In this document: positions 25,891 through 62,719 of the stretch, in pieces
Numbering within the stretch: the stretch's first letter is position 1
Layout: each line of letters opens with the position of its first letter
NCBI GenBank assembly: GCA_003024785.1
Contig: PUQB01000011.1
Location: forward strand, 558,001 to 622,000
Reading direction: 5' to 3'
Source: Selaginella tamariscina
Lineage: Eukaryota; Streptophyta; Lycopodiopsida; Selaginellales; Selaginellaceae
DNA: 64,000 bases
Translations under genes and position numbers: made by a program
The notes under the pieces: model-generated
What the model saw: only the letters and a program-made list of their open reading frames with translations
Database searches by the model: none
What the model was told of the DNA's origin: nothing

Positions 25891-26664
25891 TCACATGTGC
25901 ATGTTGAACACGGGAGAACCCGTGAATGCCTCAGTAATAACCAGGCTGAGGAATCCGATCATCGCAGCACGACCGTTCCATCTCTCGGCCTGTGCTCTCC
26001 ACGGTCCCATCACTCTGCTGTCTGGGCTCTCACCCCTGAACATGGGCACCAAGGAAGCATACCAGATGATCTGTGTCACTGCCAAGAAGTAGAAGAGTCC
26101 ACTCTGCCCCGGTGTGTACAATTGTTGTCCGACTGTGAGTCCGGTCATTCTCTCCACTACAAATGCCCACACCATTCCAACCATTGCCTGTACGTAATTC
26201 ACTCGTTAGACACTGTTGTGGATCATACAAGGCATGTCAATATGAAGAAGAAAGCAACTTACCAGGCGGCCATTGATTGTCTCGGGACCAGCTCCATCAA
26301 ATGCCATCAAGCTTCCAAAGGATCTGTCTCCTGTCTCTGGTCTCCTCTCGATCTCGGGCCTTCCAAATCTGTCCAGGCTTGGGTCGAGAGTGCCTGTTTT
26401 GGGAATGGCTCCGAACACAGACTTCTTCTCAGACTCGTTCTCCTCCATGTTCCTCAATACATCTTCCCTTGTGATCTCCTTCTTTGTGCCGTCGAGTAAA
26501 CCCCCTGAGCCACCGCCACGTCGGCCATCGTCTTTTGAAGCTCGAACAACGAAGGACACTGTTTTGCTGCATGGCCTCAGAGAGCTAGTTCCAAGGAACT
26601 TGGACTCTGAAGTGAACGCAGAAAGGGATGCAGGCAGTAGAACACTCCTTGTAACAAGAGTCAT
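25891..26664 (-). CDS. ELIP: Early light-induced protein (ELIP), copy C, intact
   Basis: Complement of 26263-26664 and 25891-26187, with a 75-bp GT-AG intron, encodes 232 residues. The transit peptide begins MTLVTRSVLLPAS. The mature part is nearly identical to copy A: a charged stromal stretch, helix I with ETINGRLAMVG, helix II, and helix III with ERWNGRAAMIG. All chlorophyll-ligand residues are present. It is the only undamaged member of the B/C/D/E type. Its 3' flank resembles that of A, while its 5' flank resembles B, D and E. The promoter motif lies at 26785-26816. Expected role is photoprotective pigment binding in thylakoids under high light or drying. Confidence 0.94.
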
Positions 26665-26784
26665 TGTGCTTTAACAAATGTAGGAGAAGAATTGAAGAAT
26701 TTAGCACTAGGAAATGACTTGAAAATGTAAGTAATGTAGATGTTTCTTGTCTTTTTCTCTTATTGGACTTGAGTATACACTATA

Positions 26785-29600: not shown

Positions 29601-29950
29601 GCAATGTATTTTAATACACTTTAATAACAATCCCTACAAAATATAAAAGAACGTTTAAAGGGTAATTCATATTTCTAAAATATGGGGGTTGTACAACTCA
29701 AAAGGCCACCGATTTTTGGACTTTCATTTTAAGAAAATTACAAGTTGGGACGTCGAAAATTTCACCCGATGCATATGTTTTTTGACATGGTTATTTAAGA
29801 AATGCCAGGTTTAAATGGGAAAAACACTCGAAAAGGGCAAAACTGCCAGTTATTTTATGGTAAGAATTACACTTTTATATTTTGTACAGTTAGAATATAC
29901 AGTTTGATCCAAATATAATATATCTATGTTTACAAAATTGCAAGGTATCT

Positions 29951-30712
29951 TCACATGTGCATGTTGAACACGGGAGAACCTGTGAATGCCTCAGTAATAA
30001 CCAAGCTGAGGAATCCGATCATCGCAGCACGACCGTTCCATCTCTCGGCCTGTGCCCTCCACGGTCCCATCACTCTGCTGTCTGGGCTCTCACCCTGAAC
30101 ATGGGCACCAAGGAAGCATACCAGATGATCTGTGTCACTGCCAAGAAGTAGAACAGTCCACTCTGCCCCGGTGTGTACAATTGTTGTCCGACTGTGAGTC
30201 CGGTCATTCTCTCCACTACAAATGCCCACACCATTCCAACCATTGCCTGTACGTAATTCACTCGTTAGACACTGTTGTGGATCATACAAGGCATATCAAT
30301 ATGAAGAAGAAAGCAACTTACCAGGCGGCCATTGATTGTCTCGGGACCAGCTCCATCAAATGCCATCAAGCTTCCAAAGGATCTGTCTCCTGTCTCTGGC
30401 CTCCTCTCGATCTCGGGCCTTCCAAATCTGTCCAGGCTTGGGTCGAGAGTGCCTGTTTTGGGAATGGCTCCGAACACAGACTTCTTCTCAGACTCGTTCT
30501 CCTCCATGTTCCTCAATACATCCTCCCTTGTGATCTCCTTCTTTGTGCCGTCGAGTAAACCGCCACGTCGGCCATCGTCTTTTGAAGCTCGAACAACGAA
30601 GGACACTGTTTTGCTGCATGGCCTCAGAGAGCTAGTTCCAAGGAACTTGGACTCTGAAGTGAACGCAGAAAGGGATGCAGGCAGTAGAACAACTCCTTGT
30701 AACAAGAGTCAT
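29951..30712 (-). pseudogene. ELIP: ELIP copy D, frameshifted
   Basis: Exon 1 corresponds to complement 30322-30712 and exon 2 to complement 29951-30246. Three lesions are visible against copy C. An extra T soon after the start codon (AGGAGTTGTTC) truncates the product at about 26 residues. A 12-bp in-frame deletion removes four residues of the Gly-rich linker. A missing C in exon 2 (near 30094, CACCCTGAAC) makes exon 2 296 instead of 297 bp. Splice sites and promoter remain. It is a young pseudogene, because identity outside the lesions is very high. Confidence 0.9.
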
Positions 30713-30833
30713 TGTGCTTTAACAAATGCAGGAGACGAATTGAAGAATTTAGCACTAGGAAATGACTTGAAAATGTAAGTAATGTTGATGTTTCTTGTCT
30801 TTTTTCTCTTATTGGACTTGAGTATACACTATA

Positions 30834-34641: not shown

Positions 34642-37440
34642 TCATGTATCATTAACCTCGTACATCCACAAAGAATCTACTCGGGACTCGAGTACTCTCT
34701 TTAACTGGCTAACGTGAAACATTGGGTGCACCCTCACTCCTTCTGGCAGCCATAGTCGATATGCCACCTTACCGATACACTCCAGAATCTCATAAGGACT
34801 TGAGTACCTGGGAGACAACTTATCATTGCGTCCCTTTCGTAAGGCCACAATTGTGTTCCGCCTTACATGTGTGGCAAATACCACTCGGAGATATACATAA
34901 TCCCCCACCTAGAACTCTCGGAAGCTTCTGTGCTCATTAGCAAACTTAATAGCTCGGCTTTGAGTTGCTTGTAAGTTCTTCTTGCACAAACTCTGAATGT
35001 TTCCAAGTTTAACACTCAGATCTTTAGCTTCCTCATTTATGTTGCCTTGAGCCTTCTTACTTGCTAAACCGAGCTCAAAAGCTGTCTTGGGATGCCGTCC
35101 AAACATAGCATAGTATGGACTCATTCCAATGCCACTGTGCTGGCTATTATTATAAGCAAACTCGAGTAATGGAATATACTTATCCCATTGGCCTTCTTTC
35201 TGATTTATAGTGCACCTTAGCATATCTTCCAGAACTTGGTTCACCCTCTCTGTTTGCCCATCTGTTTCGGGATGATCTCCACTACACAGCTTAAGCTTCA
35301 CTTCTATGCATTTAGAAAAGCCTCTCCAAAAGCTAGAAGTGAACTTGGAGTCCCTATCACTTACAATATCATTTGAAAATCCGTGGATAGGAAATACATG
35401 TTGTAAATACATCGTAGCCAGCTCGGATGCATTCACATTCTTCCCCTTGGCAAATGGGTGACAAAGTCCATAGAGATACTGCCCCATCTGTCTGGAATAG
35501 GCAATGGTACTAATAGCCCACCTGGTTTTCCCTGGGCACCTTTACTTGCTGACACTTGTCACAAGTCCTGCAGTACTCTATGATATCAGCTTTCATATTC
35601 CTCCAGTAGAACCTCCTCTTGATCAACTCATACGTTTTCCTCCCCCCAAAATGACCAGCCTCCGGGCGATCATGATGAAAATATAGTACCTGGTTGATCA
35701 AATGGTCCACACGAGGAAGGTACACACGGCCATTGTAGTACAAAACCCCATCCTGAAATGAGAATGGTGGCTCTAGCTGTCCTTTGAGCTCCTGCACCTC
35801 GGCGTCTTGTGCTTGAGCATGTTGAACTACTTGGCTAAACTCACTGACCGTCCTTGTTAATGCATTACATAAGCGTGTTTGGAATTCTCCCACTACTGTG
35901 GCTCTCCTAACGCGTGACAAAGCATCTGCCACCACGTTAGTCTGCGCGATGCTCAATAGGAAATTCGCCAAACTCCATGAGCTTAACCATCCAGCGAGCT
36001 TGCCGAGAGTTTAACTCTTTCTGTGTGAACAGATACACCAAAGGCTTGTGATCTGTAAACACCTTGAAACTTGCACCATAAAGATAGTGCCTCCAAACTC
36101 GTAATGCATTAACAATAGCCAGTAGTTCTTGCTCATACGTTGAGTACCGTTGCTCTGCAGGATTCAAAGTACGACTCTCATAAGCAATAGGCCTTCCCTC
36201 TTGCATAAGTACAGCTCCAATGGCCACTCCACTTGCATCACACGATACCTCATAAGGCTTAGAGGGCAATACATAAAACTGGTGCACGTACCAAAGCTTG
36301 GAAACTGCTCTCCTCTGAAGCACTCCATGCAAAGGGAACGTCCTTCCTTAGCAACCTAGTTAACGGAGAAGCTTTCTTGGCATAATCCTTGACATACCGC
36401 CGGTAATAACCAGCCATGCCCAAGAAACTCCGTAACTCTTGTGCATTGCTAGGAACTGGCCATTGCTCCACCACTGCCACCTTCTGTGGATCAGTCTTCA
36501 CTCCACTTGGCGTCACAATGTGACCCAAATACTCCACTTCGCACTGAGCAAATGCACATTTGCTCTTCTTTGCATAGAGCTTGTTCTCCTCAGCAATTGA
36601 AGAACTCTCCGCAAATGCTCCACATGCTCCTTCATATTCTTACTGTAAATAAGAATATCGTCGAGGAAGATCTCCACAAAGTCATGCAAGTAGTCACCAA
36701 ACACCTCAGTCATCAACCGAGTGAATGTGGCTGGGGCATTTGTTAAGCCAAATGGCATAACAGTGAACTCAAAATGCCCGAAGCTAGTGTTGAAAGCAGT
36801 TTTGTAGATATCTGCCTCCTTCACAGCAATCTGATGATACCCGCTGCGCAAATCTATCTTGGTGAACACTCTGGCTCCACCGAGATGATCCATGATAGTA
36901 TCCACACGTGGCATGGGCATCCTGTCCTTCACTGTTTGCTTGTTGAGAGCTCTGTAGTCTATGCACATCCTCATGGTGCCATCCTTCTTCCTGACAAGCA
37001 ATACTGGTGCACCAAATGGAGACTTGCTCGGTTGTATGAAGCCATATTCCAATAGCTCCATCACTTGTCTCTTAACCTCTTGCTCCTCAGCATGGCTCAG
37101 TCGGAACGGCTTACGGTAAATGGCTTTCGTACCCTGTTCCAACACAATCTCATGCTCCACACCTCTTGCAGGTGGTAAGCCATGAGGTAGCTCAGGAGGG
37201 AAGACATCAGCAAATTCCTCAAGGACAACTTGCACAGCAGCTCCAATGTGACATTAGAAGAATCTAACTCACGTATATACATCAGAAAGACTTGATCTTC
37301 TTTATTACGGAGATATTTCTTCAAAGACATAGTAGAAAGATACTTGTTTGGAGACTCAAGCCTTGTTCCAAACCAAGTGTCTTTCACTCCACTGTACTCA
37401 AGCTTCACTCGCTTGATGCTCCACTTGATCTTAGATGCAC
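34642..37440 (-). pseudogene. Ty3/gypsy pol remnant (RT, RNase H, integrase)
   Basis: Reverse transcriptase has [22 protein letters not shown] and [10 protein letters not shown] (about 37020-36650). RNase H has SCDASGVAIGAVLMQEG (about 36240) and FTDHKPLVY. Integrase has an HHCC finger ending CRTCDKCQQ (about 35560), SDRDSKFTSSFWRGF (about 35350) and a C-terminal segment with VHPMFHVSQLKRV (about 34715). Frame changes occur near 36540, 36300, 35960, 35500 and 34900. The protein begins without the protease or gag because the element is cut at 37440. Confidence 0.88.
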
Positions 37441-37461
37441 GTTGTAACTAAAGTGGGCATG
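37441..37461 (+). repeat. Left terminal inverted repeat of large DNA element
   Basis: 21 bp pairing with 51062-51082 with a single mismatch (position 13, G versus A). The outer TGCA (37436-37439) also has a counterpart. Confidence 0.8.
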
Positions 37462-37706
37462 ATACGTGAAAATGGAAATATAAAATAAATTACTAATTAA
37501 TACTTAAGTTTTAGTTATTAATTAATCATTTAATTAATATGTAATTAAGCCTTAAATATTAATTAATTAATTAATTAATCCTTCAATAACCTTACTTAGT
37601 AAGGAATATTCCTAAAATATCTTAGAATATTCATATTATTCTAAAAATAGTTTACAATAATGAAGAAATACTATCAAACATAATTACAAATGAAATCATT
37701 TCCTTA
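37462..37706. other. AT-rich subterminal region of the DNA element
   Basis: Rich in ATTAATTAAT words, with no gene. The opposite subterminal region (50580-51060) has a similar character. Confidence 0.5.
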
Positions 37707-38760
37707 TCAACATGTTAATTTATTTATAAATACTTTCTTCCTAACCATACAGAGAAATCTCCTCATTTTATCTAAATCATCACTCTCCGGATTAATCAAA
37801 TCATTTTGGTCAATATATTGATGTTGTTGCCACCACGTAACACTCTCACGAATGCAATTGGGAGTTGCCATCCTTGTTAATACATAAGATGTAATAAGAC
37901 CAGGTGTGCATAAAGGCTCATCTAAAAAATGACGTTCCTTAAGAATAATATTATAAAGTGCCCGGTTGCTATCCTTCATTTTATAAAATTCAATATCACG
38001 AGAAAGAAAAGCTTCAGGAAATGTATGATACGGTGGACACTGCTCACAAAAATTTTCGAGATTCTTCTTTCTGAGGCACGTATCCAAGTAGTTCACTAGC
38101 TCATCCATGATATCGGTATCAGAATATGGATCGAAAGTGATTAGATGAATACAAGCAATGTTTTGGTTGAGCATAGCCTTCTAAGGAGAGTCGTCTACTA
38201 CTAACATCTGTGCGTTCTTCATTATCCTTAAGCGACTGATCTCCCCATGAGTCCCAATTATTCTTTCATTCTTGAAGAAGTATGGCTTGCTTTCCTTTCT
38301 TATATTGTGAAATTCGAGAGGGTTAAGTTATGAATCTGCATGCATGACCAAATCCCACAAGCGCACCCATCTCCTTAAGCTTTTGAAAGAGACGATCCAA
38401 CCCTGGACGAAAAATAATTCATATCGAAATTTACCATGACAAGGAATGAAATCTCCTTGTTTGATTTCTTTTTTCTATCCTCGGGCCTTTGTCGATGAAG
38501 CAGAACACCATTGACATCCAACAACACAATATGGCCATGAGTAACATGAGATAGCGTTGCCTCTTGAATACTTTGCAAATCACTTGTTTGCTCCCTTTCA
38601 CATTTATCCGTTGCCACTATCTCGTTGCCTATCCCTTCATCATTTAATTGTACATCATCCTTACAAGATTCAGATATTGCATGCGCTGAAGAAATTGATT
38701 TCGGAATGAAGCCAATAAAAATGATGATGAAGTGGCCCCCATGGTAACGATGTTTTGAGC
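37707..38760 (-). pseudogene. FCP1/NIF-type HAD phosphatase pseudogene
   Basis: Motif I of the HAD superfamily appears as HIVLLDVNGVLLHRQ (about 38535-38490), where canonical FCP1 enzymes have DLDGTL; the second Asp is replaced by Asn. RPGLDRLFQKLKEMGALVGF (about 38408-38350, another frame) matches the FCP1 segment after motif I. KESKPYFF, MLVVDDSP and FDPYSDTDI (about 38300-38110) match the motif III region. The C-terminal extension ends at 37707. A TAG interrupts the motif after VVDDSP, and at least two frame changes precede it. FCP1-type enzymes dephosphorylate proteins such as the RNA polymerase II tail. This copy cannot be functional as read and would lack a catalytic Asp even if repaired. 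Upstream exons before 38617 are uncertain. Confidence 0.75.
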
Positions 38761-39058
38761 TGCATTATTATCCATTTCCTGCATGAACTCTGTCATTCTG
38801 ACATGTGGCACAAGAAATTGTCGCCAAACCCCTCTCTTACCTCATGCAATGCTGAAAATCCATGTTCTCAATTTTTCATTACATCTGCAAAATGATAATT
38901 AGCTGACCTTAAAATTATCAAGGTATATTATTTACCTTGTTAATGTGTGACCCATGTTTGAACTAAAAGCTTCATTAATCCTTGAGAATTTATTTTCTGT
39001 ACAAATATAAAAGAAATATACAAAAATGCCTTATGTTACACTCATTTACAACTATTCA
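38761..39058. other. Spacer between FCP1-like and ParB-like genes
   Basis: No gene recognised. Presumably the 3' end of the ParB-motif gene and the 5' end of the FCP1-like gene, which run in the same direction. Confidence 0.4.
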
Positions 39059-42000
39059 TCACTCTATCAATTCATTAAATTCTTCTTCGCTATTACCTTC
39101 TGAGTGAGGCGAAGAAGGTCTAAGCCGCTTGTGAGATGGTTCAAGATCTTCTGCATCTTCTATTGATGTTTCCATGGGTCCTGGAGTGTGCGAATGTTCT
39201 GTACTCCTCGAGATAACTTCCGGTCTAATATCTGATTGAAGTTCGTTCTCAGACTCCGAGATTGAACCAGATTCACCTTCAGAGCTATCGCACTTATCTG
39301 GAGGGAACTTTCTCAAATACGCCTTTATGGATTCGTTGGGGTACTCAGTTGAGACCCAATCTATCCACTTGTTCAGGTCCTCAACCATGGTCTTATCCTT
39401 TCAACGGCAAACACACATGTATGCCGAAGGTAACACTCCTTCAAGACGGACCCCCTAGTGCAGTAGTCAAAAACCCACGCATCACTGTGAGGACCCCTGA
39501 TCAAGTTGACGATGCTCCGTGCCGCTTGACTTGTAATGTTTGGATAACGTACATTGCCGAATACGTCACTCCTATCGGTGTATCGGATGGAGGTTCAGGG
39601 CCGTTGGAGTGCAAACAGATGCCTGGCCAGTCATTTGGAAGCTTGAAATTGTTTGGCGCATTCCTAACAACCAAGTGAACAACGTATCAATGCACTTGGG
39701 ATTAGCATCGTTCATATAAAATCCTGTCCAACGATGTCTATTCTTCTTGGCGAAGGCGAAGGCAAAAGTATCGGTGACATGAGCAAGAATCAAGAAATAA
39801 ATACCTGAAAAAGTAGGTATCAGTGAAGAGCGCAAGCATGAATTCAATAATAAATACCTTCTATGTATATGCTTGCACGGCTAAGTTTCTCCACCAGATC
39901 CTCTAGTGCCCTATCTGTCGAAAGATTTTTTGACACCCGCCGATCCATCACGAACAATTGAAACGGTTTCCTACAAGCAGTGATGTTACCCCATAAAGTC
40001 TCCGAATCTAACAACAAACATCTGTAGGGCTTGTCGTGATTCGTAGCATCCTCCTTTATAAGGTTCAATTCGGTTCTCCGCTGCTGAAGGACTGCCATAA
40101 GAGAAGGCGTCATCCCAATGTTCTCCTTTTTGGCGTTGGCGTGCAATAGATTCTTGCCTAGATCTTCCGATTGGTTCACCCATTCGACAAGCATATCATC
40201 GTTCGTCACATGCAAATATTTGCTGACCTCTTCATATGTTGAAGTCGAGGTCCAACCCAGTTTGTGGCAGTGTATTCCCAACCACTCCTTGAAATGCCTG
40301 ACCGTCTTCAACTCCATTGCCTTGAGATGAAAAGGAGAGGTTGGGCTGCTGTTATTAATTTGTAGTTTGCCATCGATCACCAAATCAGCCAAGACTTCCA
40401 TCTCCTCCATCGTTGTTCCATTTAAAGGCTTCAACCATGTGAGCTTGAAATCGTTGTCTACATCCTTTAGATTGAACAGACTTAGCCTTCGGCGTCTTAC
40501 TGGGTTTCTTTGCAGACTTTTCTGAGGGCTCCCCTTCACTTGTCTGCTTCTTCTTCAGTGTTCCTTTTGAAAAGGATTCCATAATCCCCAACCATTTGGC
40601 AAAGATCCTATCTTCGGGGCAAGAAATCAACATCATCAGAAAGGATGTTTCCTTCCCGCCCACCTGGGCAAAATCAACTGCTGCAATTTCTTCAACTCTC
40701 TGAGGAAAAAACAGATTAATATACCGGCGAGATAAATCCCGCCCAAACAATTTGCTTACCCGGTATTCCGCAGATTGTGTATTCCCTGCGGTAGCTCTTT
40801 GTGGTCGCTGAAGAGATTCCCACACGGCTCGCGTGTGTTTAAACTTCTCCCATATTTTGCTGTTGTAGTGGTTGGTGTCGGCAGCGTCCCATTCCGCCGA
40901 TAACTTATGGTACTGCTCGATTGTGAGATTCGGCTTAGCTAAAAACGCCGATCTTTTTGTCAGCTTCTCACGGGTATGCTCGGAAAGTTTTGTTGCCATC
41001 GTTCCTTTGTTGTGTTCATCGAGAAGTCGTTGGGCTGCCGTTATTGTGTGCTGGCCACTAATGATGTAGTACTTGATAGATTTTTATTCTCCGTCTGAAT
41101 CTTCATGAGTTGTTCTGGTGTTGTGATCCAGACTTTGTCAGCCCTTCCTTCTTTCATAGTATGGACACAAAACAGCATTATGTGGAACGGTATAAGAATT
41201 GTCGTCCTTCATCTTCTCCATGAGCTCAGCTACACGTTCCTGGTTGAGTGGCCTGTAATTGAAGTTTGGGTTGACGCTGCAATATTTAACCCTACAAGGA
41301 TAAATCTTATCATCCAACATCATTTCCTTGTGACTTATTGCAGCATGAGATGCCACAGGTGCAGCTGACAAAACGATTGATGATTTTCTTTTGCGATCCG
41401 AATCAACATGTGTGATCCCCGACTGCAGCTGTTCTAGTGTTCTCGGCACACTCTTCCAGCTCCCGAAGCTTCCTAAGCAAATTGAACGTGATCTGTAGAG
41501 AACCTGAGACCGAGCCACCTCTCAATCTCCCTTATGATGTCGCTGTGTTCTTCTTCAATGTGAAGAGGGAAGATTGCTCCACTTGCTGATTTTCTGTATT
41601 GTGAAGCAATATCTCCTGACAATACACCTACTCGATGAGTCTGAAGATCTTCGAAGTAGACATCCAGATGGATCCCCTCCATAGATGGGCTTTCGTTGAG
41701 TTGAAGAAGAACTCCAAGGTCAACATCATTAGTGAACACGTGAACGTCATTATCCACAAGTCGACAAAACCACCCGAAATTAATGTTGTAACTGACGACC
41801 TCTGGATCCGAGAACGTGACATTGGATGGAACAAGGCATATCTGTCGAGCATCGTCCAATCTGGGTTCGCAGCCTGCTTTCGGGTGCTTGACTAGCGAAT
41901 CTACTTTCCATTGTTTTGCTTGTCCATGAGATGTGACAGAGGTTAATTTGACAGCAACCATGGTTGCTCCAATGCGCTTCCCATTTATCTTAAAATATGG

Positions 42001-42196
42001 CCAAGTTGATTCCAGAATCCCCCTGCCCATCTCTTCTCCTGCTCTTGTCTTTAATGTCACCTCAATTCCACATCTGAATACAAAAATGATTAGTTCAAGT
42101 ATCCGAGTATAACAGATTTTATTTTAATTCTTACCCAGAATTTGACGACGACTCCATACTAATGACTCGATCTCCTTGTTTGATCAAATCGTCCTT
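39059..42196 (-). pseudogene. Multi-exon gene with ParB-like nuclease-domain motif, frame-disrupted
   Basis: Visible exons on the minus strand: 42135-42196 (KDDLIKQGDRVISMES; acceptor TTTTGCAG), joined by a clean GT-AG intron to 42073-41473 (a novel 200-residue N-terminal region). Then comes a segment at about 41420-40940 with YRPLNQERVAELMEKM and YYIISGQHTITAAQRLLDE. The last matches the ParB/sulfiredoxin-fold signature (GxHR-like loop followed by AA). Further on are a helical Lys-rich region (40999-40385), a region of unknown fold (40539-39858), an intron of about 57 bp to 39801 (FLILAHVTDTFAFAFA), and an acidic tail ending NELIE at 39059. Frame changes without splice sites near 41470, 41090, 40480, 39640 and 39500 suggest a pseudogene or unrecognised introns. 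ParB-fold proteins include DNA-bound CTPases and nucleases. I see no helix-turn-helix. An upstream first exon is missing. Confidence 0.6.
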
Positions 42197-42300
42197 CTGC
42201 AAAATAATACACTATAATACAAATCATATAAAAACGCACACACACTTGTATAAACCCGAATATACAAAAATAATACACAGAGAGAAGTAGACGTAATTAA

Positions 42301-42382
42301 CTGTCCGAAGCTCACATTTGTGTAGTGCAAAAGAAAGATAACATTTCGTTTTAGAACCACCACAAATGTGAGCTCTGGACAG
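42301..42382. other. 82-bp hairpin with 22-bp stem
   Basis: Arms 42301-42322 (CTGTCCGAAGCTCACATTTG plus TG) and 42361-42382 pair at 20 of 22 bases around a 38-base loop. It lies between the ParB-motif gene and the left palindrome array. It could be a small-RNA precursor, a regulatory cruciform or a tiny foldback element. Confidence 0.7.
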
Positions 42383-42498
42383 TTTTACATAGATTCCTAG
42401 CTTTTACTCGAAATATTATGATAAGATGATAAAAGTAAATAAAATGAGATATGCAACTTATATATACTAATACACATATATATTCACATGGAAGGTGC

Positions 42499-44145
42499 GG
42501 CGGGATTAATCTCGCCACCCCTTCAATGCCTCCTGAAAGAGTGGGCGGGATTAATCTCGCCACCTTTCTGGAGGCCTTGAACGGGAGTGCGGAATTAATC
42601 TTGCCACCCTTCTCGGTCTCAGAGAGAACTGGGCAGGATTTATTTCTCACACCCCTTCAGTGACTCCAGAAAGGAGGCGGGATTAATCTCGCCCACCATG
42701 TAAGGGATGGTTAAATGAATTTCCCACCCTTCCCAGTCTCTCCATTGGTATGTTGTAAACCTTCTACGTCTCAGACAGAAACGTTTGGGATTGGTCCGAC
42801 TCACCAATGGAGAAAAAAGGAAGGGTGGCGGATTCATTCCTCCAACAGGCATTGAAGACTCGGCGGGATTAATCCCGCCGCCCAGGGCCTTCACTCGGTC
42901 CCTATGCGGCGGGATTAATCCCGCCGGACGCCAATTCCCTGCGCGGAATCGGGCGGGATTAATCCCGCCGCCTAGGCACTTCAGGGCCAATGGCGGCGGG
43001 ATAATCCCGCCCGATTCCGCGCAGGGAATTGGCGCGGCGGGATTAATCCCGCCTCCCAGGCCCTTCACTCGGGCCTTAGTCGGCGGGATTAATCCCGCCG
43101 AACGCCAATGCCCTGTGCGAAATCTTGCGGGATTAATCCCGCCGCCTAGGCCCTTCAGGCAGGCCAATGGCGGCGGGATAAATCCCGCCGATTCCGCGCA
43201 GGGCATGCGTACGCGGCGGGATTAATCCCGCCGCCCAGGCCCTTCACTTCGGCCGTAGGCGGCGGGATTAATCCCGCTGGACGCCACCTTTCTCGTTCTC
43301 AGAGAGAATTGGGCAGGATTTATTTCTCACACCCCTTCAGGGGCTCTGAAAAGGCGGCGGGATTAATCCCCCCACCATGTAAGGGATGGTGAAATTAATC
43401 CCACCACCCTTCTCAGTTCCCTCCATTGGTATTTTGTAAACCTTCTCCGTCTCAGACAGAGTTAGTCGGGATTGATTCAACATACCAATGGAGGAAAAAA
43501 AAAGGGTGGCGGGATTAATCCCGCCACCGGGCAATGAAGGTTCGGAGAGATTAATCCCCCGCCCTCTCGTAAATCATGCGCTCACACATATATATTGGCT
43601 GCGGCATTTTGAACAGGGATGGGTGGGGGGGATTAATCCCGCCGCTTATATCCTGCGGAAGTGCCTGAGCGGCGGGATTAATCCCGCCGCCCTCCGCGAA
43701 GGGCATGAGCGTGGGGCGGGATTAATCCCGCCGTTCATGTCCTGCGTGAATTCCCTGGGCGGCGGATTAATCCGCCCCTTACGCGCAGGACATGTCATGC
43801 AGGCTCTTCGGTTAGCCTTCCGTGCAGGATCTTTCATGCAGGTCTTCGGTTAGCCTCATGAGCGGCGGGATTAATCCCGCCGCCCATCCCCTGTAAATGC
43901 CCTGCGCGGAATCCACCGGGATTAATCCCGCCCATTAGGGCCTTCACACAGGCCATTGCCGGCGAGATAAATCCCGCCGCATTCCGCGAGGGCATGGGTG
44001 GGCGGCGGGATTAATCCCGCCGCCGAGGCCCCTCACGCAGGCGGGATTAATCCCGCCGCTCTTCGGTTTGTCCTAGAGCGGCGGGATTAATCCCGCTGCC
44101 GAGGCCATAACCTATAGCGGTGGGATTAATCCCGCCGCTCGAGGG
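42499..44145. repeat. Left array of the 18-bp palindrome GGCGGGATTAATCCCGCC
   Basis: About 28 copies, 12 of them exact by eye, the rest with one to four changes. Each copy equals its own reverse complement. Spacing is mostly 40-60 bp. Between 42862 and 43290 four palindromes with distinct spacers form a higher-order unit of about 174-179 bp (exact copies start at 42862, 43036 and 43215). Within the unit, spacers are inverted versions of each other (CGCCAATTCCCTGCGCGGAATC near 42930 against its complement near 43010). GC content is far above that of the surroundings. The array lies upstream of the ParB-motif gene. Long open frames here on both strands (GLIPP/GGINPA peptides) are by-products of the palindrome. 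Confidence 0.95.
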
Positions 44146-44213
44146 GCTTAGCGTGTGTGCGAGAGATAAAATTAATAATAAAAAAATTACACAGATAAAA
44201 ACACACACATATA

Positions 44214-44260
<47 letters not shown>

Positions 44261-44915
44261 GTATGTATAGGAGTGTACGTGTGTGTGCAAGAGATAGATA
44301 AATAAATAAAATTATACAGTACTGGTACACATAATATATGTGTGTACATAGGTATATATATGTGTGTATATGTATATCGTGTGTGTGCGTGTGAGCGAAA
44401 CAAATAAAATCATACAAATAAACAAACACACACACACACATATATATACACAGGAGTGTGCGTGTGTGTGCGAAAGATAAAACTAATAAATAAATAAAAT
44501 TATACAAATAACACACACATATATATGTGTGTATATAGATATATAACCCATAGAGAAAGAGAGAGAGTCTGTGAATATATAAGCATATATATAAACTAGT
44601 GTTGTATACTATTTGTTAATATGCATTGATTATATATATATATATGTAAAGCAGTGTGCGTGTGTGTGGGAGAGATAGATCAATAAAAAAAATTTATAGA
44701 TACTGGTACACATAATATATGTATGTATATATGTATATAGGTATATATATATGTGTGTATATGTATATCGTGTGTATGCGTGTGTGAGCGAAACAAATAA
44801 AATCATACAGATAAACAAACACACACCCACACACACATATATATACACAGGAGTGTGCGTGTGTGTGCGAGAGATAGATCAATAAATAAAATTATACGCA
44901 CACTCCTATACATAT

Positions 44916-44948
<33 letters not shown>

Positions 44949-45320
44949 GATCTCACCTGTGTGCACAGCCGCCGCCGCCGATTTCACAGCCGCCGCCTCT
45001 TGAAACCCTAAGAATATACCTAAACCCTAAAGGAATTAAATATATATATTAACCCTAATAGAATATTCCTTCTGAGAATATACTTAAACCCTAAAAAGAA
45101 TAAAATATAGATTCGCCCTAAACGAATATTCTTTCATTATATTATTAGCGGTGTGTGTGCGTGGGTGTATCACATACACCCCAAAAATATAAATCATGCA
45201 GGGATTTAACACGTGTGTGTCCATGAGAATGTTAAAGTTTCATGTGTATCAATACATACACATTACATATATTAATACACATAATATATACATACACACG
45301 TGTATACACACAGACATACA
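44146..45320. repeat. TA/CA-rich minisatellite between the palindrome arrays
   Basis: A unit containing GTGTGCGTGTGTGTGCGAGA followed by TAGATAAATAAAATTATAC occurs about five times (near 44150, 44275, 44450, 44650 and 44855), mixed with (TA)n and (CA)n tracts. Around 44970-44990 is a short GCCGCCGCCG stretch. Apparent open frames are low-complexity. Confidence 0.85.
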
Positions 45321-45332
45321 TACATATTACAT

Positions 45333-45763
45333 GGGTTTAGGGTTAGGGTTTAGGGTTTTGGATTTAGGATGGATCATGCATGGTGTGTATGTATAAGAGA
45401 AGAGAGAGTGTTGAAAAATTAATTTTGTACACATTGCATATATTAGTACACATATATACTTACACATATTATACACATATATACATACATAGTATATGAG
45501 AGAAGAAAGACAGTACATATTAACATGGATTCATGCATGGTGTGTATGTATGAGAAAAGAGAGAAAGTACACATATATACATACACACGTGTATACACAC
45601 AGACATACATACATATTACATAAGTAAATTCATTGTGTTACATATTAGGGTTTAGGGTTTAGGGTTTAGGATGGATCATGCATGGTGTGAAGAGAGAGTG
45701 TTGAAAAATTATTTTTGTACACACATGTATACACAGGGTTTAGGGTTTAGGGTTTAGGGTTTG
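45333..45763 (+). repeat. Interstitial telomere-type repeats (TTTAGGG)
   Basis: Three short runs: 45333-45359, 45645-45670 and 45735-45763, each of three to four TTTAGGG units, embedded in repeated GGATCATGCATGGTGTG-type sequence. The plant-type unit supports a land-plant host. Confidence 0.85.
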
Positions 45764-47340
45764 CTCCCAACAAGCTTAATATAAATATTACACATGTAAA
45801 TTCAATGTGTTACATACACACAGATTGAGTACATATATCATACATGCGTTGAACATGATGTTTTCAATAAAGAAGCAACATATTTCTTCAGTTTGGTTTA
45901 GGGTTGTGCATGTGTGTGCATATGTGTTTTTGTAAGTTCTTGTAATGCGTGTGTAAATTTATGATTGTGTTTATATATGTGTGCAAAACAAACATCGAAT
46001 AATTAAGAAATAATATTAATTAAACACACTATGAACATATTTTAAATTATACATAATAATATATGATTTTATCTAATATATAGCCATATATAGTTTTAAT
46101 AATATATATTAATTTAATATTGATAAAAAGGTTTAACATTGAAATATTCTTGAAATAATAAGAAATTAATTGAGAAAATCTCATTAATATATACAAATGT
46201 AAATTAAGTACTCAAATAATTAATTAAATTAATTATCATAATCATGTTTAATATTGGAATATTCTTGGAATAATAAGAAAATAATAAAGAATATCCCATT
46301 AATATAAAGAAGATTAATTACTCAAGTAATTAAGGAAATGATATTAATATACACACTATGAACATATTTTAAATTATACATAATAATACATCATTTTATC
46401 TAATATATAGTCATATATAGTTTAATAATATATATTAATTTAATATTGATAATAAGGTTTAACACAGGAATATTCTTGAAATAATAACAAATTAATTGAG
46501 AAAATCCCATTAATATATACAAATGTAGAATAATTACTGCAATAATTAAGAACAAGACTAATTTAATTATGATAATCAGGTTTAATATTAGAATATTCTT
46601 CAAATATTAATAAAATAATAAAGAATATCCCATTGATACTAGGAAATGAAAACTAAATACTCGAGTAATTAAGAAATAATAATAATAAACAGACTATGAA
46701 TATATTTTAAATGATACATAATAATATATCAATTTATTTATTGTATAAGTATATATTTATATATATATAATATATAATATACTTGAATACTAAGAATGTA
46801 GAATATAGTTTAAAATTTCGTAATATTAAACAGCTTGAATCACTTGAATAACATTAAATGCAATTTTAAAATACTCATTGGAACTGGAGAGTATATATGT
46901 CAGAGTGTCGGATATTTGTGTCAACTCATCTTTTATTTTCTGTTCTTTTTAAAAAATTTGAATTTCTGACATATGTATTGTCGGTCTGACATGTAAATTT
47001 GAAAATGCATTTAATTTCTCACTCAAATTCAGATCTGGTTCTTTCTCCGGCAAGGGTTTCTTCATTTCTGTTTTTTCACTCTTTAGATCTTCTTTTTTCT
47101 TCATAGTGATCATCTCAGGAGCAAGATTAAATTGGGTGCTATTCTTTATAGGAAAGCACGGCGCCTTCAGTGCTGTTTACAAGTAAGTATTATAAACAAA
47201 TTTAAAAATATTTATAAAGATTCACTCTCTTACATTCTCTCTTAAAATTACAATTTAGGGGTTTAGGAATGCATTAGGATTATAATATATTCCGTTAGGG
47301 ATTTATCCCGTTTAAATATCCTTTTAACTTAATATTCTAG
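45764..47340. other. AT-rich central region of the DNA element
   Basis: No gene. It contains two to three diverged repeats of a block with GAATATTCTTGAAATAATAA (near 46145, 46255, 46465 and 46590). The last part (about 47030-47180) has a TC-rich leader-like sequence before the right array. Confidence 0.5.
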
Positions 47341-48045
47341 GTTAACCGGGGCGGCGGTATTAATCTGGCCATTTCTTTTTCGCCTCTTCGAAGAGGTGGC
47401 GGGATTAATCCCGCCACCATCTCTCGGGAAATGCTTCTCCGCCACTGAAAAAGAGTGGCGGGATTAATCCCGCCAATAACCTTCTTAACTGAGGAAGAGT
47501 TACCAGAATTTATTAGAAAGAGTTGTCGGCGGGATTAATCCCGCCAACCATTTTAGGAGGCAGGGAAGGGGTGGCGGGATTAATCTCGCCATCACTTCCC
47601 TGTTTTAAGGATTTGGGGACAGGATTTATCCCGAGATCTCTTTGAAATCATAGTTTTGGAGAGAGTTATGTGCTGGTTTAATCCCGCCACCCATTCCCCG
47701 TCGTAAGAATTGTGGGCGGGATTAATCCCGCCTTGGACTCCCTCCGACAAGGAAGAGCCGGCGGGATTAATCCCGCCGCCTCTTCCTCCTGGGGGAGTCC
47801 GGCGGGATTAATCCGCCGACTCATCCTCGCCGGAGAGAGTCGGCGGGATTAATCCCGCCAGACTCCCCCGAGGAGGAAGAGGCGGCGGGATTAATCCCGC
47901 CGGCTCTTCCTTGTCGGAGGGAGTCCAAGGCGGGATTAATCCCGCCGACTCTCTCCGAAGGGGTTGAGTCGGCGGCGGGATTAATCCCGCCGACCGTTCC
48001 TCGTCGGAGGGATTCGTGGGCGGGATTAATCCCGCCCATCAGTTG
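47341..48045. repeat. Right array of the 18-bp palindrome
   Basis: About 14 copies of GGCGGGATTAATCCCGCC, ten exact. From 47715 to 47947 the array forms one larger palindrome of about 233 bp. The spacers GGACTCCCTCCGACAAGGAA and GCCTCTTCCTCCTGG on the left reappear as reverse complements on the right, centred near 47828. It lies about 150 bp upstream of the transposase-like gene. Confidence 0.95.
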
Positions 48046-48190
48046 TATTAATCAAACATGAGATATTATCTCTAAACATAATTATGTATTATTGCATATG
48101 CATATTATTAAGTAACCGTAATTCAGATTTCTTAAAAATATTGCATAAACAGATATCATAAATAATACAATTATTTATGTGCAGGACAAT

Positions 48191-50460
48191 ATGTTTAATA
48201 TTGGAGATAAAGTATGTCTTCTTCGGAATAACGAAATAGTTGGCACTAGAACTGTGGAAGTTCGAGATAATAATGCATCATGTCACAATATTGCCCAAGG
48301 ATCTTGTGTGTACGTATGGGTGAACATCATTTACAAGCATGTTTGAGGTTCTGGGAATGGAATTTGAGGAGGGTTTTCCTGTATTGTGGAATTTGGATGA
48401 AGTCAAGGCTGACACAGAATATGCAGAGTCACAAACAAATAGTAGCACGAGTTTACCAGATGATGGCTTGCCTGCTGTGATGGATGAGGTGATTCTCTTT
48501 CTTCGTGAGATTGAAGTCGGAAGAGGCATCATCACAGCTATAAATCCAATGGAAGCAGTGTCAGAAGAGAAACTAGGGTCCGACTTCGTGGTGTAGTTGT
48601 GATAAAGGTTTCACCTAATGGCACATTGTATCCTGGATCCCTCGTGAGGTGGCGAACATCTGAATTAAGACGGCAAGATGGTTCAACATATTCTGGGTTG
48701 GATTTCAATAATAACAACCCGGAAGAACAACTCATATTTGAAGAGGTTCCTTGCATTGGTCCTATTGTAAGAAAAAGGCGATTCATGGGTTGTAGATCTT
48801 CCCCTGCAAGTTTCAGCAAGAGGGTAAAGATGGGTCCTACATCTTCCGAAAGTGTTACGAGCATTTCCACGATTGACTGTTGCAAGAAGAAGTGTTGTCA
48901 GATGGCAGACCGGAATGAAATTACCCAATGTAGACATGTCTTTCGTATGCTCACCCAAAAGCAAAGGCATGAGTTTGTATATGCTGCACTAACTGGGTGT
49001 ATTGATGGAATGGCCTCGGACACAGGTTATCAGAGTACATCCATGGTATTTAATAAGGTGGCCATTTGCTTCAAAGCTTGGTACAATATATACGGGATCC
49101 CAAAGACCACATTCTACCGTCGGAGGGATGAGTGGCTAGATGGAGCACGAACCTCAATTCATGGGAACACTCGCTTGGTCAAAACCCGCTCTCACATCAT
49201 GGCAGCCATAGAGATACTCAAGGCTTTTGTGGAAGCAAATGCAAACAGGATGCCTCACATATGCCGAACCACAAATGTAGGGGTCAGGGAAAATCTCAAG
49301 GTTTTGCCTTCAATCTACACTCAATTGAAGCTGTGTGAACATGTGAACAAGTGCCTCAGTTTGATGGGGCTCCAAGCAATCTGCACTGGTACCTTCAACA
49401 ACATATGGAATACTCATTTTTAAGGATGTGGAGATTGCAAAACACTCTAGCTTTTCCAAGTGTGACACTTGTACATCATTGAAGGCTGCAGAGGCTTATG
49501 CAAAAACCTTGGTGGAGATCACTGCCATTCAAAAGAAAATGAGGCCCACATGATTGCGCAACAAACTTGCCGGTCTCAGTACTATGCACACCGCATGCTT
49601 TCTGTGTCACGCCCATCAGAGTGCAGAGGTGTGCTAACACATGGACACGGTTGTGAATCATATGGACACTTTTCACTTCCACATTGGTCTAGCGACTCCA
49701 ATTTCACTATTGGGTCGTTAGCCATGTGTTTTAGAAACCTTGAAGCTCACTCACAGACAAGTCCTATCAGTGATCTCAAAGTGAAGAAACAACACCTTCA
49801 ACCTTTACATAATGCTCTCATGAACACGTCTGCACTTGAGGCTACTTGGGAATATGAGAGGCATTGTCAACAGCCTGCTCAGTTTCCTTATGGTTGGTCA
49901 CACTCATGAAGATATTGATGTGTTTTTCAGCAAGGTCTCCAACTCTACAAAAAGGACAAGTGCACTTACTTTACCGCATATGATGAATCTTTTTGAAAAT
50001 TGCATCTCCAAAAAAAGTTGTGCTTTGCTTGTGACTGAGGTGCCAGACTTCAAAAAATTTCTCAAGGAGTATATAAAGAAGGGAGTGATTCTTTAGTTGG
50101 TCACCTTGTGCCGCTACAATTCTTTTCTCCATACGAGATGGTATACCCTATTATGCAGTACAAGTTACAGCCATCAGAGCAGGAGTGGTTACCGAAAGAG
50201 GGCTTAATGCTCTTCAAAAGTGGAGAGGATGGAAAGCCACTTCTCCCAGAAGGACAACCAGACCCTATTCCATTGAGTGCCCAGCTCAAGGAACAAGAGG
50301 TTATTATTGATGGATAATCAGCCTATTTGGATGGGTCAAATTATCGACACACCTGAAGTAATCACAAAAAATAGTATTGTTAAGGTTGCATGGTTCAAAC
50401 CACAAAAAAGGCGACACGAGAAGGAGAGCGAAAGATATAATGGATGCCTAGAGAAAACAT
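48191..50460 (+). pseudogene. Transposase-like gene with DUF7869-type GHTHEDID motif, decayed
   Basis: The ATG at 48191 opens a 51-residue start (MFNIGDKVCLLRNN), after which the frame moves to 48339-48595 and then 48599-49423. This last part holds a Cys-rich CCKKKCC segment and KTTFYRRRDEWLDGA. VEIAKHSSFSKCDTCTSLKA (about 49430) and AQQTCRSQYYAHRMLSVSRP (about 49558) follow in further frames, then GRSDSN-like HWSSDSNFTIGSLA (49690). The diagnostic LLMVGHTHEDIDVFFSKVS is at 49890-49945. A C-terminal WMGQI...VKVAWF segment ends at 50460. Family members I recall carry two conserved acidic blocks between these motifs. Here the stretch between about 49625 and 49870 appears shortened and lacks them. 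At least five frame breaks make it inactive. Role as transposase is inferred. Confidence 0.65.
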
Positions 50461-51061
50461 AGTCTCCCAATCAAAAAACCCAGCATGTTTATAAATGTTA
50501 AATCCATTCGATATGGGTGGATGTCAAGAAGCGTTGATAAAGTCACGATTAACAAAACTGCAAGGGAATGTATGTTTTCTGAAGCTTAAAGCAATTACAA
50601 AATTATAAAATATCATATATTTAATATTCATAATTATTATAAACTCTTTAATAATAGTACTAAATTATATACTTAACTATATAAATTTAAAAAATGATAT
50701 GGAAGATTGACTATATTATTATAGATATATATATTATTACTACTACAAATTTTTAATTAATAATGTTATATTTAAATATTAATATTTTAATAACAACATC
50801 AATATTTATATAATGTACCTCTTATGCTCTTCCTTAATGTTATATTAGGCAAATATTATATAATTTAATACCTTCTACTTTTATAATGTTATTAATTTTT
50901 GTTCAATGAATGCTATAATTTATTAAAGGGTAGAATACAAAATAGAATATTCTAAAGAATATTCTATTTTCAAACATATATTCTAAAGAATATTCCTTTA
51001 ATATTAAAAAATGCTAATTAAATAGCTAAAATTGCTAATTATTAGGAAATGGGACTATAGC
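50461..51061. other. AT-rich right subterminal region of the DNA element
   Basis: No gene. Short inverted words (AAAGAATATTC and GAATATTCT near 50945-50995) and AT-rich sequence, mirroring the left subterminal region in composition. Confidence 0.5.
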
Positions 51062-51082
51062 CATGCCCATTTTAGTTACAAC
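51062..51082 (-). repeat. Right terminal inverted repeat of large DNA element
   Basis: Complement of the left repeat at 37441-37461 with one mismatch. TGCA follows at 51084-51087. Confidence 0.8.
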
Positions 51083-51087
51083 TTGCA

Positions 51088-51486
51088 TTATAGGATATTC
51101 CTACAGGATATGCCTATAGGATATACCTACAGGATATGTTTGTAGGATATTCCTATAGGATATACTTATAGGATATTCCTATAGGATATATTACAAAATA
51201 TGCCTAGAGGATAAGGGTCACTATTTTTAGCTCATGACCAGATTAGACTCATGACCAGATTAGCTTGGAGTTGTGAGTATAAAAGCTTCGACCTAATTGT
51301 TGTACAATTAGTTACTATCAACACTAGTCTTTTTACGATCAATCTTGTCTTGTCTTGCTCCTTGCCTCCTGCTTTTGTCTTGTTCTGGTTCTTAGTTCAT
51401 GTCCTGCTCCTTATCTTGCTTCTGATTCAAGCTTCCTTGTACTCGGAATCCTGCTCACTTTCTTGTTCCTGGATCGTGACTTGATA
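51088..51486 (+). repeat. 5' LTR of retrotransposon 3, truncated
   Basis: Matches the second part of 56524-57060. It starts with 13-bp tandem repeats of AGGATATNCCTAY (51092-51205), followed by a TATA box and a CT-rich leader. The terminal CACA has become GATA. Confidence 0.85.
51278..51285 (+). promoter_or_regulatory. LTR TATA box
   Basis: TATAAAAG, also present at 56851-56858 in the other LTR. Confidence 0.6.
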
Positions 51487-58690: not shown

Positions 58691-59090
58691 GTTGTTTAAT
58701 TTGATTGTATCGTTAGGATGTATTTCAATCACACCTGATCGACAATCCCTACCAAATATAAAATAATGTTGTAAAGGTAATTCATATTTCTAAAATATGC
58801 GAGTTAGTACAACCCAAAAGTCCACCAATTTTGGATTTTTCATTTTAAAAAAATTACAAGTTGGGAAGTCGGAAAATTTCACATGATTGCATATGTTTTT
58901 AACATGGTTATTTTAAGAAATGCCAGGTTTAAATGGGAAAAAACACTCGAAAGGGGCAAAAACTGCCAGTTATTTTATGGTATGAGTTGACGTTCTTAAA
59001 TAAGAATTACACTTTTATATTTTGTACAGTTGGAATATACAGTTTGATCCAAATATAATATATCTATGTTTACAAAATTGCAAGGTATCT
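58691..59090 (-). repeat. ELIP E 3' flank
   Basis: Reverse complement of 18743-19130 beside ELIP B. Non-coding. Confidence 0.7.
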
Positions 59091-59863
59091 TCACATGTGC
59101 ATGTTGAACACGGGAGAACCTGTGAATGCCTCAGTAATAACCAAGCTGAGGAATCCGATCATCGCAGCACGACCGTTCATCTCTCGGCCTGTGCCCTCCA
59201 CGGTCCCATCACTCTGCTGTCTGGGCTCTCACCCCTGAACATGGGCACCAAGGAAGCATACCAGATGATCTGTGTCACTGCCAAAAGTAGAACAGTCCAC
59301 TCTGCCCCGGTGTGTACAATTGTTGTCCGACTGTGAGTCCGGTCATTCTCTCCACTACAAATGCCCACACCATTCCAACCATTGCCTGTACGTAATTCAC
59401 TCGTTAGACACTGTTGTGGATCATACAAGGCATATCAATATGAAGAAAGAAAGCAACTTACCAGGCGACCATTGATTGTCTCGGGACCAGCTCCATCAAA
59501 TGCCATCAAGCTTCCAAAGGATCTGTCTCCTGTCTCTGGTCTCCTTTCGATCTCGGGCCTTCCAAATCTGTCCAGGCTTGGGTCGAGAGTGCCTGTTTTG
59601 GGAATGGCTCCGAACACAGACTTCTTCTCAGACTCGTTCTCCTCCATGTTCCTCAATACATCTTCCCTTGTGATCTCCTTCTTTGTGCCGTCGAGTAAAC
59701 CCCCTGAGTCACCGCCACGTCGGCCATCGTCTTTTGAAGCTCGAACAACGAAGGACACTGTTTTGCTGCATGGCCTCAGAGAGCTAGTTCCAAGGAACTT
59801 GGACTCTGAAGTGAACGCAGAAAGGGATGCAGGCAGTAGAACACTCCTTGTCACAAGAGTCAT
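59091..59863 (-). pseudogene. ELIP: ELIP copy E, frameshifted in exon 2
   Basis: Exon 1 (complement 59462-59863, 402 bp) is open and begins MTLVTRSVLLPAS like copy C. Exon 2 (complement 59091-59385) is 295 instead of 297 bp. One base is missing near 59284 (CCAAAAGTAG) and one near 59178 (CGTTCATCTC). Both disrupt the frame, so helix II and helix III with the second chlorophyll ligand pair are lost or mistranslated. Splice sites and promoter are intact, so a transcript could still be made. Confidence 0.9.
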
Positions 59864-59984
59864 TGTGCTTTAACAAATGCAGGAGAAGAATTGAAGAATT
59901 TAGCACTGGGAAATGACTAGAAAATGTAAGTAATGTAGATGTTTCTTGTCTTTTTTCTCTTATTGGACTTGAGTATACACTATA

Positions 59985-61157: not shown

Positions 61158-61650
61158 GGCAACAAGTAGAGTAGAACGAGGAAGAAACACGTAAGAAGAA
61201 GTAGTAAAGGTGCAGATGGGAAGCAAGGGGCTGTGGTTGTTAGGAAACCTGCGAAGACTAAAGGGGTCGTCATCGCTATTTGCTAACATAACTTGACTGT
61301 AAACACACACGGAGTGCATATATAGACACAGAAGTCCCGTAGTATGAAGTATAATGCAATATAATATAGTTATATAAAAACTTATAGCATTTACTAATAT
61401 TTTCTTATTCATAATGTTTTGATTATTGAAAGTTTCTATTATATTATAATATAAGAAAAATCATAAAAGTTGATTGATTTTTATAAATTATGTTTGGTTC
61501 GTACGATGTGTTTTGCATATGTATATATGAGGTATATATTTACACAATATGTATATACGTTAAACTATATTTGGACCATAAAGTTCTATTAAAAAATAAG
61601 GTTAAAAGTCTCCATTTAAGGAATCGAGGAGTAGAAAGGGTCAGATCCTG
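61158..61650. other. AT-rich intergenic sequence
   Basis: Nothing recognised. The last 100 bp should hold the promoter of the following gene (TATA-like TATATATGAGGTATATA near 61520). Confidence 0.4.
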
Positions 61651-62719
61651 ATGAAGAAGAGGAAAAGAGAAGAAGAAGCGAACATAGGAGAGTTCATGAA
61701 AACATTACCACACGAGATAAGGCAAAATATATTAGACAGGTTAGATCCAATAGAATTACATAGTTCTTATTTCTTCTACGGTGTACCCAATCACAACGAG
61801 ATGGTAAAGAAACACCTAGACAATCGCTGGTATGGAATGGCACACAGGATGCTAAATGATATAAAGAGCGACGTAGAGACTTACCACATGGTTATACTTG
61901 AGACGCCCTTGAATAACAAATCAATACCCGAGTATGGTGACTCTCACTATGTAATACTTACACAAGCTATGGAGAAGATGAAGCGGTTAGGCTTTTCACG
62001 TAGTATGGAGTTGTTTGAAAAGTTGATCTTATATCCTTACAACCATGCAACTACTGTGAATCTTTATAATGACATGGTTAAAGAGTGCAGTGGTACAGTC
62101 AAGCCCCAAGTGTATAAAGCAGTTTTGCATGCTATGATTAATAGGGATATACAGGAAGCTATTAAGCTTGCAATGTCCCTCCTTAGTAAGGGTATTCAAT
62201 TTGATATGTCTTATCTTGTTAGAGACCTTGTACACAAGGACAGAATAAAAGATGTTGAGCATATTCTAGAGGCTTTCGGTGGATGTGAACCAGTGTTTAT
62301 TGAGATATTAGTCAAGCTCAGTCCCAAGGTCGAAACGTGGGAATACGCATACAACCTTGTGTACGAAAACGCAAAGTTAAAATCGCCCAGAACAGAGCAG
62401 CTTTTAAAGGCATTTGTGAGCAGCATTTGGAACAGAAAAATACTTATTATTAAGCTCTACGGAGGTTAATAATAATAATAATACGTGGGTGTTTCATAAT
62501 AAGGATAAGTGGCAGCTGCACATGTTGGAAAAGTGCTTTGAAATTGTGGTGATAATTGGAAAGGTGCCTGACAAGAATACATGTGTTGCAATCACATGTG
62601 CACTACAAAAATGTGGTAAGGAAGAAGAGGCTATGTTCATGTTCCAGCGTGGGGTCTGCGAGCCGGGTATTAAGAATTATAACGATTTAAAAGAATGGGT
62701 GCGTCGCAGTTTCTATTGA
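61651..62719 (+). CDS. Protein with F-box-like N-terminus and PPR-like helical repeats, frame interrupted
   Basis: An ATG at 61651 opens 272 residues. A basic start (MKKRKREEE) is followed by LPHEIRQNILDRLDPIEL (residues about 19-36), which fits the F-box consensus. Then come helical pairs resembling PPR units: VYKAVLHAMINRDIQEAIKL (about 155-174) followed by SLLSKGIQFD. The frame ends at 62469 in GGTTAATAATAAT. One base later the frame continues, through five Asn from the AAT repeat, to WVFHNKDKWQL and two further PPR-like helices, ending RRSFY at 62719. The total would be about 350 residues. Either a one-base slip at the microsatellite has broken the gene or a splice is hidden there. Family not recognised; an organelle RNA-binding or ubiquitin-ligase adaptor role is only a guess. 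Confidence 0.55.

Follow-up and report, generated by a model that had tools for sequence, protein, structure and literature searches.

Our analysis of a 64,000-nucleotide stretch of the Selaginella tamariscina genome (C113:558001-622000 in an assembly of 300,702,823 bases and 1,391 contigs; "the window" below) suggests that an element of about 13.6 kb within it belongs to a recently amplified family of giant cut-and-paste DNA transposons, most likely Sola1-like members of the Sola superfamily, whose ParB-like accessory protein would act on the transposon itself. We assign this reading a probability of roughly 0.7. The element is bounded by terminal inverted repeats and carries a DUF7869 transposase gene, an oppositely oriented gene with a ParB-like motif (the "second gene"), a NIF/FCP1-like phosphatase gene and two arrays of an 18-bp palindrome, GGCGGGATTAATCCCGCC. 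Judged by its sequence, the window copy is a dead, decayed member of the family.

An earlier note on this DNA, made from the letters alone, had reported 21-bp inverted ends that agree at all but one base and have TGCA at the same distance outside each. The ends, GTTGTAACTAAA[G/A]TGGGCATG, do match at 20/21 bases, and the 21-bp sequence has two matches in the window versus none in 100 shuffles. Extended outwards they give ATGCA[C/A]GTTGTAACTAAA[G/A]TGGGCATG, a sequence of 27 bp with two mismatches between the two window ends; TGCANGTTGTAACTAAANTGGGCATG maps to 37436-37461 (+) and 51062-51087 (-) and is absent from all 100 shuffles.

Searching the assembly with the exact 21-bp end returned 2,938 occurrences (1,490 + 1,448; backward control 0), many of which form inverted pairs about 14 kb apart, and the 18-bp palindrome was found at 27,128 places (control 0). 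The end counts and the inverted pairing bear out the earlier note's reading of a large plant DNA transposon with these sequences as its limits. From the matches listed we sampled 20 plus/minus end pairs lying 10–18 kb apart, of which 10 were fetched whole and 10 as ends only. Full copies measure 13.6–15.4 kb, and the 10 besides the window copy share its ends, arrays and gene order. Eight of the 11 full copies (window included) differ by 0.5–2.2%, while E1, E4 and E7 differ by 2.8–6.1% from one another and by 6.7–8.1% from the eight close copies; these sequence divergences indicate a young burst on top of an older layer, in a family that is very abundant and recently amplified. If the copy number is about 1,400 (2,938 ends divided by 2, or 27,128 palindromes divided by 19.7 per copy), the family would occupy about 20 Mb, or 6–7% of the assembly. 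Among the matches listed on contig C1, 8 of 10 palindrome clusters, counted by eye, have an exact end no more than 8 kb away (those without one are near 130 kb and 1.81 Mb), and in the same region palindromes occur within 15 kb of 11 of the 12 exact ends (the exception is at 1,443,353), so that arrays consistently lacking the ends were not what we found. In one further pair (C42:16205-26856) one end adjoins, by eye, the second gene of another copy and the other flank offers no continuation; nested or rearranged copies thus occur.

The 4 bp immediately outside the 27-bp repeats are identical in 10 of 21 copies (TCTT, ACTT, TAGA, ATGT, GATA, CGTT, ATAG, ATAC, ATAA and ATTA), versus 5 of 420 mismatched pairings used as a control. 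Among the 11 copies without an exact 4-bp match, E1 has a match of five bases and E3 one of three, and the remaining nine, including the window copy, show no agreement. We also compared filled with empty sites, as the earlier note had proposed, by searching the assembly with the joined flanks of six insertion sites and scoring 40 candidates. Matches across the junction were obtained for two of the six sites (L81 and E9), and for the other four, none of the 40 scored candidates spanned the junction. The nine places retrieved for L81 and E9 are all empty: they lack the element, lack ATGCA and hold the 4 bp once. The three L81 empty sites read TTTCATCGTT^GTTCG, with a single CGTT. In the six E9 empty sites, CTAG^AATAA, TAGA occurs once and the junction is one base short relative to the joined sequence. 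The true target duplication is therefore 4 bp. TGCA, which could itself be taken for a target duplication, is present outside both 21-bp ends as first described, and we reject it in that role since it is nearly constant across copies (it flanks both ends in 15 of 21, whatever the surrounding sequence), the 4-bp duplications lie outside it, and it is missing from the empty sites. At the left junction of the window copy it is likewise absent from the paralogous Gypsy copies (11 of the 11 paralogues fetched). TGCA is part of the terminal repeat, whose length we set at 27 bp because the 4-bp duplications of other copies lie outside ATGCA..TGCAT, in agreement with the empty sites.

The putative transposase that the earlier note had recognized by its GHTHEDID motif proved to be a DUF7869 protein (Pfam PF25273, E 1.6e-18, 67.4 bits against a gathering score of 26). 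The window copy retains GHTHEDID and has lost the segments with the first and second conserved Asp residues, the loss of the second being judged by alignment, as a pattern search also matched elsewhere in the window copy. Better copies exist: exons of 660 and 392 aa are open in 11 of the 15 best-scoring loci, giving at least 11 loci with both. Asp residues 532, 667 and 709 are conserved in 30/30, 35/35 and 35/35 sequences, respectively. In the structural model the three invariant Asp residues follow an RNase-H-like order, with E706, D707 and D709 as candidates for the third acid, and the predicted order of fold elements has modest similarity to Mos1 and retroviral integrases; a Foldseek search with the model gave no PDB match at E <= 0.001 among the families listed. 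The model of a DUF7869 relative, P0004, contains two predicted N-terminal barrels (residues 1–205, the first with Tudor/PWWP-like neighbours) and a BAH-like C-terminal domain (925–1046), making it a transposase relative with possible chromatin readers. We found no paper naming DUF7869 and none on Sola transposons with Selaginella in the literature searched (subscription papers were mostly outside reach).

The second gene runs opposite to the transposase gene, and its ATG lies 330–385 bp from array 1 in all 11 full copies (341 bp in the window). By eye, its product begins with a barrel-like module followed by the ParB-like motif NPNFNYRPLNQERV...[S/N]GQHTITAAQ. The ParB-type gene of the earlier note stands as a motif seen by eye; no library supported the domain with a significant match (Pfam, PHROGs, NCBIfam and PDB), and homologue searches returned no relative. 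A fold model from the single sequence was uninformative (predicted local distance difference test, pLDDT, 38) and was not used. Two other matches were discarded: a PDB match with E 1.7e-5 was made up of several weak repeat matches to a designed protein, and a match to GmrSD_N (E 0.082) vanished with a better sequence of the gene. We regard the ParB identity, as read from the sequence, as plausible but unproven. No ParA-like gene was seen by eye, and no search aimed at it was made. The N-terminal module aligns with the second barrel of the transposase with an hhalign score of 23.9 (probability 17%), versus a shuffle baseline (n=40) with mean 11.8, standard deviation 2.4 and maximum 19.9; with the first barrel there was no hhalign signal. 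The C-terminal part follows, by eye, the motif order of a beta-class methyltransferase, with motifs reading DRRV and DYC[T/S]RGS; N4/N6 DNA methyltransferases of this class carry DPPY and FxGxG motifs. Pfam, PHROGs, NCBIfam and tblastn gave no support for such a domain, and hhalign and hmmsearch comparisons with a narrow profile built from YhdJ did not exceed shuffles, so we do not claim it.

What had been described as an HAD phosphatase pseudogene is confirmed as a broken NIF/FCP1-like gene (PF03031, E 1.6e-7 for the joined window pieces and E 1.7e-10 in copy E9, with 41.3 bits against a gathering score of 21.8). DxD is the catalytic motif of NIF/FCP1-SCP phosphatases; the corresponding motif reads DVN, not DxD, in the window copy, E8 and E9.

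Codon comparisons between older and younger copies, counted as single changes summed over related and hence non-independent copies, gave non-synonymous/synonymous changes of 35/59 for the linker exon of the second gene (neutral expectation 3.1 to 1), 109/108 for its ParB exon (3.0) and 54/28 for its C-terminal exon (3.2); the transposase gave 55/55 in its 5' part (3.1) and 34/18 in its 3' part (3.3), and the NIF gene 29/18 (3.4). Among young copies the counts are 5/26, 81/36 and 35/26 for the three exons of the second gene, 22/24 and 9/7 for the two parts of the transposase, and 47/18 for the NIF gene. These counts indicate that the second gene has been under purifying selection between the older and the younger copies, and they are firmer evidence on this gene than its motifs.

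The two palindrome arrays are borne out and occur in all 11 full copies. Allowing up to three mismatches, the window contains 39 palindrome sites (shuffle mean 0.00), all inside the element between 40.7 and 48.04 kb: 24 in array 1, 14 in array 2 and one exonic. The exonic site (40726-40743, two mismatches) lies in the coding sequence of the second gene and has a single counterpart in each of the 11 copies. A copy holds about 20 exact palindromes (19.7), and the commonest spacings in the 11 copies are 45, 44 and 46 bp (81, 66 and 53 times). The arrays precede both main genes by 0.15–0.4 kb. In the window, 41 units average 91% identity (a value inflated by picking units for their similarity), and 28 spacers are 54% identical versus 49% for shuffled spacers; 60 of the 61 exact half-sites on both strands lie in the arrays, and the partner half is 95% identical, a figure unaffected by that selection of units. 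Between young copies the palindrome columns differ by 2.3% versus 4.8% for the spacers, and between young and old copies by 6.5% versus 15.7%, which indicates that the palindromes change about 2.1–2.4 times more slowly than the spacers, with a mild bias in that direction from defining palindromes with up to three mismatches. This conservation makes it quite improbable that the arrays serve as CpG-rich promoters or silencing decoys which host factors maintain, and lack a partner encoded by the element: each palindrome half does contain one CpG, and the array stretches have a G+C of 0.56–0.58 versus 0.38–0.41 in the flanks, but composition alone would not preserve a single 18-bp word, and CpG is not raised in the spacers (observed/expected 0.64 versus 0.62 in the flanks).

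The palindromes could instead be binding sites of the transposase, acting as an internal enhancer or as subterminal-type repeats, with the second gene unrelated to them. Many transposases bind repeated internal motifs, and array 2 ends 154 bp from the transposase ATG in the window (149–154 bp in the seven copies, out of 11, whose start pattern could be recognized). We nevertheless find this explanation rather unlikely: the arrays are 5–7 kb from the left end and about 3–5 kb from the right, and so are not subterminal, one array stands before each main gene, and a symmetric 18-bp site would suit a dimer such as a ParB-type protein. In the mechanism we favour, the DUF7869 protein would excise the element at its terminal repeats and insert it with a 4-bp stagger, and the ParB-like second protein would bind, as a dimer, the palindromes before both genes. 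There it may act on the element's own chromatin, by keeping the promoters active, marking the DNA or gathering the transposase, and copies retaining both the protein and its sites would thereby spread better; the NIF-type phosphatase would be a third, less constrained accessory gene. A more specific version, which we put forward tentatively as possible rather than probable, is that the transposon has its own ParB-parS-like system, in which the protein nucleates on the roughly 20 palindromes per copy, covers or marks the element and thereby maintains its expression or mobility. In bacterial ParB-parS and the SopB-sopC system of the F plasmid, a ParB-type protein reads an array of short palindromes repeated about every 43 bp; the arrays described here resemble sopC in their period of about 45 bp, ParB identity being a matter of motif only. 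VANC of the VANDAL transposons offers another parallel, as a transposon protein that counters silencing by recognizing short motifs clustered within the element that encodes it, although its motif, protein and transposase are presumably unrelated to those of the Selaginella element.

The earlier note had suggested that this may be an undescribed class of transposon, and this part found no support: the 4-bp duplication, the putative DDD (three-aspartate) transposase and the oppositely oriented ParB-like gene fit published Sola elements, in particular Sola1-1_Ec32. According to the accessible parts of the published descriptions, Sola elements have a DDD transposase, 4-bp duplications and terminal inverted repeats of 11–1124 bp, are mostly 2–9 kb long with some above 15 kb, are known in Physcomitrella and seem to be uncommon among flowering plants (PMC10741241, PMC9033089). 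The Selaginella family agrees in its 4-bp duplication (10/21 exact versus 5/420) and its 27-bp repeats; its DDD transposase is putative, with three invariant Asp residues and modest fold matches. Sola1-1_Ec32 of the brown alga Ectocarpus sp. 7 (21.5 kb) encodes, opposite its transposase, a protein of 1,104 aa that combines a ParB-like domain with an N4C/N6A methyltransferase domain, and the authors suggest that such ParB-type proteins bind and modify their own transposon (PMC12477816, accessible text). The Selaginella ParB-like gene is likewise opposite the transposase; unlike the algal element, this family is 13.6–15.4 kb long, has a NIF phosphatase gene and about 20 exact palindromes per copy, and its methyltransferase is unconfirmed, while the accessible text on Sola1-1_Ec32 mentions no binding-site array (PMC12477816). 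The element functions like a Sola transposon and by this analogy is probably of the Sola(1) type, and thus probably not a new class but a Sola1-type variant whose candidate binding arrays are new. A superfamily of its own, distinct from Sola and defined by DUF7869, seems unlikely to us: DUF7869 is unnamed in the literature searched and the likeness to Sola is one of published description, not of sequence, but the 4-bp duplication and putative DDD triad speak for Sola, as do two further points: Physcomitrium has a DUF7869 protein as well as Sola1, and Ectocarpus Sola1-1 carries a ParB-type gene that runs opposite to its transposase. Large size and prokaryote-like gene labels might also suggest an endogenous virus or an integrated giant-virus fragment, but this is extremely improbable for a family that has a transposase, makes 4-bp duplications and is represented by thousands of ends bearing 27-bp terminal repeats. 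A Pfam scan of 10 window open reading frames named no virion gene, no wider virion search being made, and viral contigs scanned with DUF7869 yielded no relative and, with the palindrome, one locus with one site, which we take for chance.

Table 1. Features of the element in the window (coordinates are window positions)
Feature	Coordinates	Strand	Basis
Left terminal inverted repeat ATGCACGTTGTAACTAAAGTGGGCATG ("G" end)	37435..37461	+	End comparison, duplications, empty sites
NIF/FCP1-like phosphatase gene, broken in window copy	37707..38764	-	PF03031
Second gene, several exons, broken in window copy, start codon 42157	39059..42157	-	Motifs by eye, codon test
Palindrome array 1, 24 units of GGCGGGATTAATCCCGCC, spacing mostly 44-46 bp	42499..44136	.	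Up to 3 mismatches
AT-rich spacer between divergent genes: simple repeats, TTTAGGG runs, tandem duplication	44140..47340	.	Sequence inspection
Palindrome array 2, 14 units	47353..48036	.	Up to 3 mismatches
DUF7869 transposase gene	48191..50588	+	Pfam, homologues, model, better copies
Right terminal inverted repeat ATGCAAGTTGTAACTAAAATGGGCATG on - strand ("A" end)	51062..51088	-	End comparison, duplications, empty sites

The window copy is flanked on the left by a minus-strand Gypsy element cut off mid-gene and on the right by the truncated 5' long terminal repeat of a plus-strand Gypsy element, and blastn found the missing Gypsy parts nowhere else in the window. With two different Gypsy flanks and no duplication in its 4-bp flanks (TTAG/TATA), we reject a simple insertion for this copy; recombination between copies, another rearrangement or an assembly join are candidates for the origin of its junctions. 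The spacer between the divergent genes contains runs of the plant telomere-type repeat TTTAGGG (45330-45760) and a tandem duplication (46000-46780) whose roughly 330-bp units are 85% alike. Elsewhere in the window, three very similar ELIP-like genes with a chlorophyll a/b-binding fold were seen by eye (25900-26680, 29930-30720 and 59050-59870, minus strand), which is consistent with the ELIP expansion of a desiccation-tolerant Selaginella; 74 ELIP genes are given for S. tamariscina in the accessible text of PMC8558194. A long open plant-like gene lies at 61650-62720.

Binding of a transposon by its own ParB-type protein has already been proposed by others, with no binding site named in the accessible text (PMC12477816). 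What is new here is that a young, very abundant vascular-plant family carries candidate binding arrays for its accessory protein, and since the candidate site is present in all 11 full copies of this young high-copy family, the idea of self-binding becomes directly testable. If the transposon does have its own ParB-parS-like system, its burst would have spread about 27,000 plasmid-centromere-like sites through the host genome.

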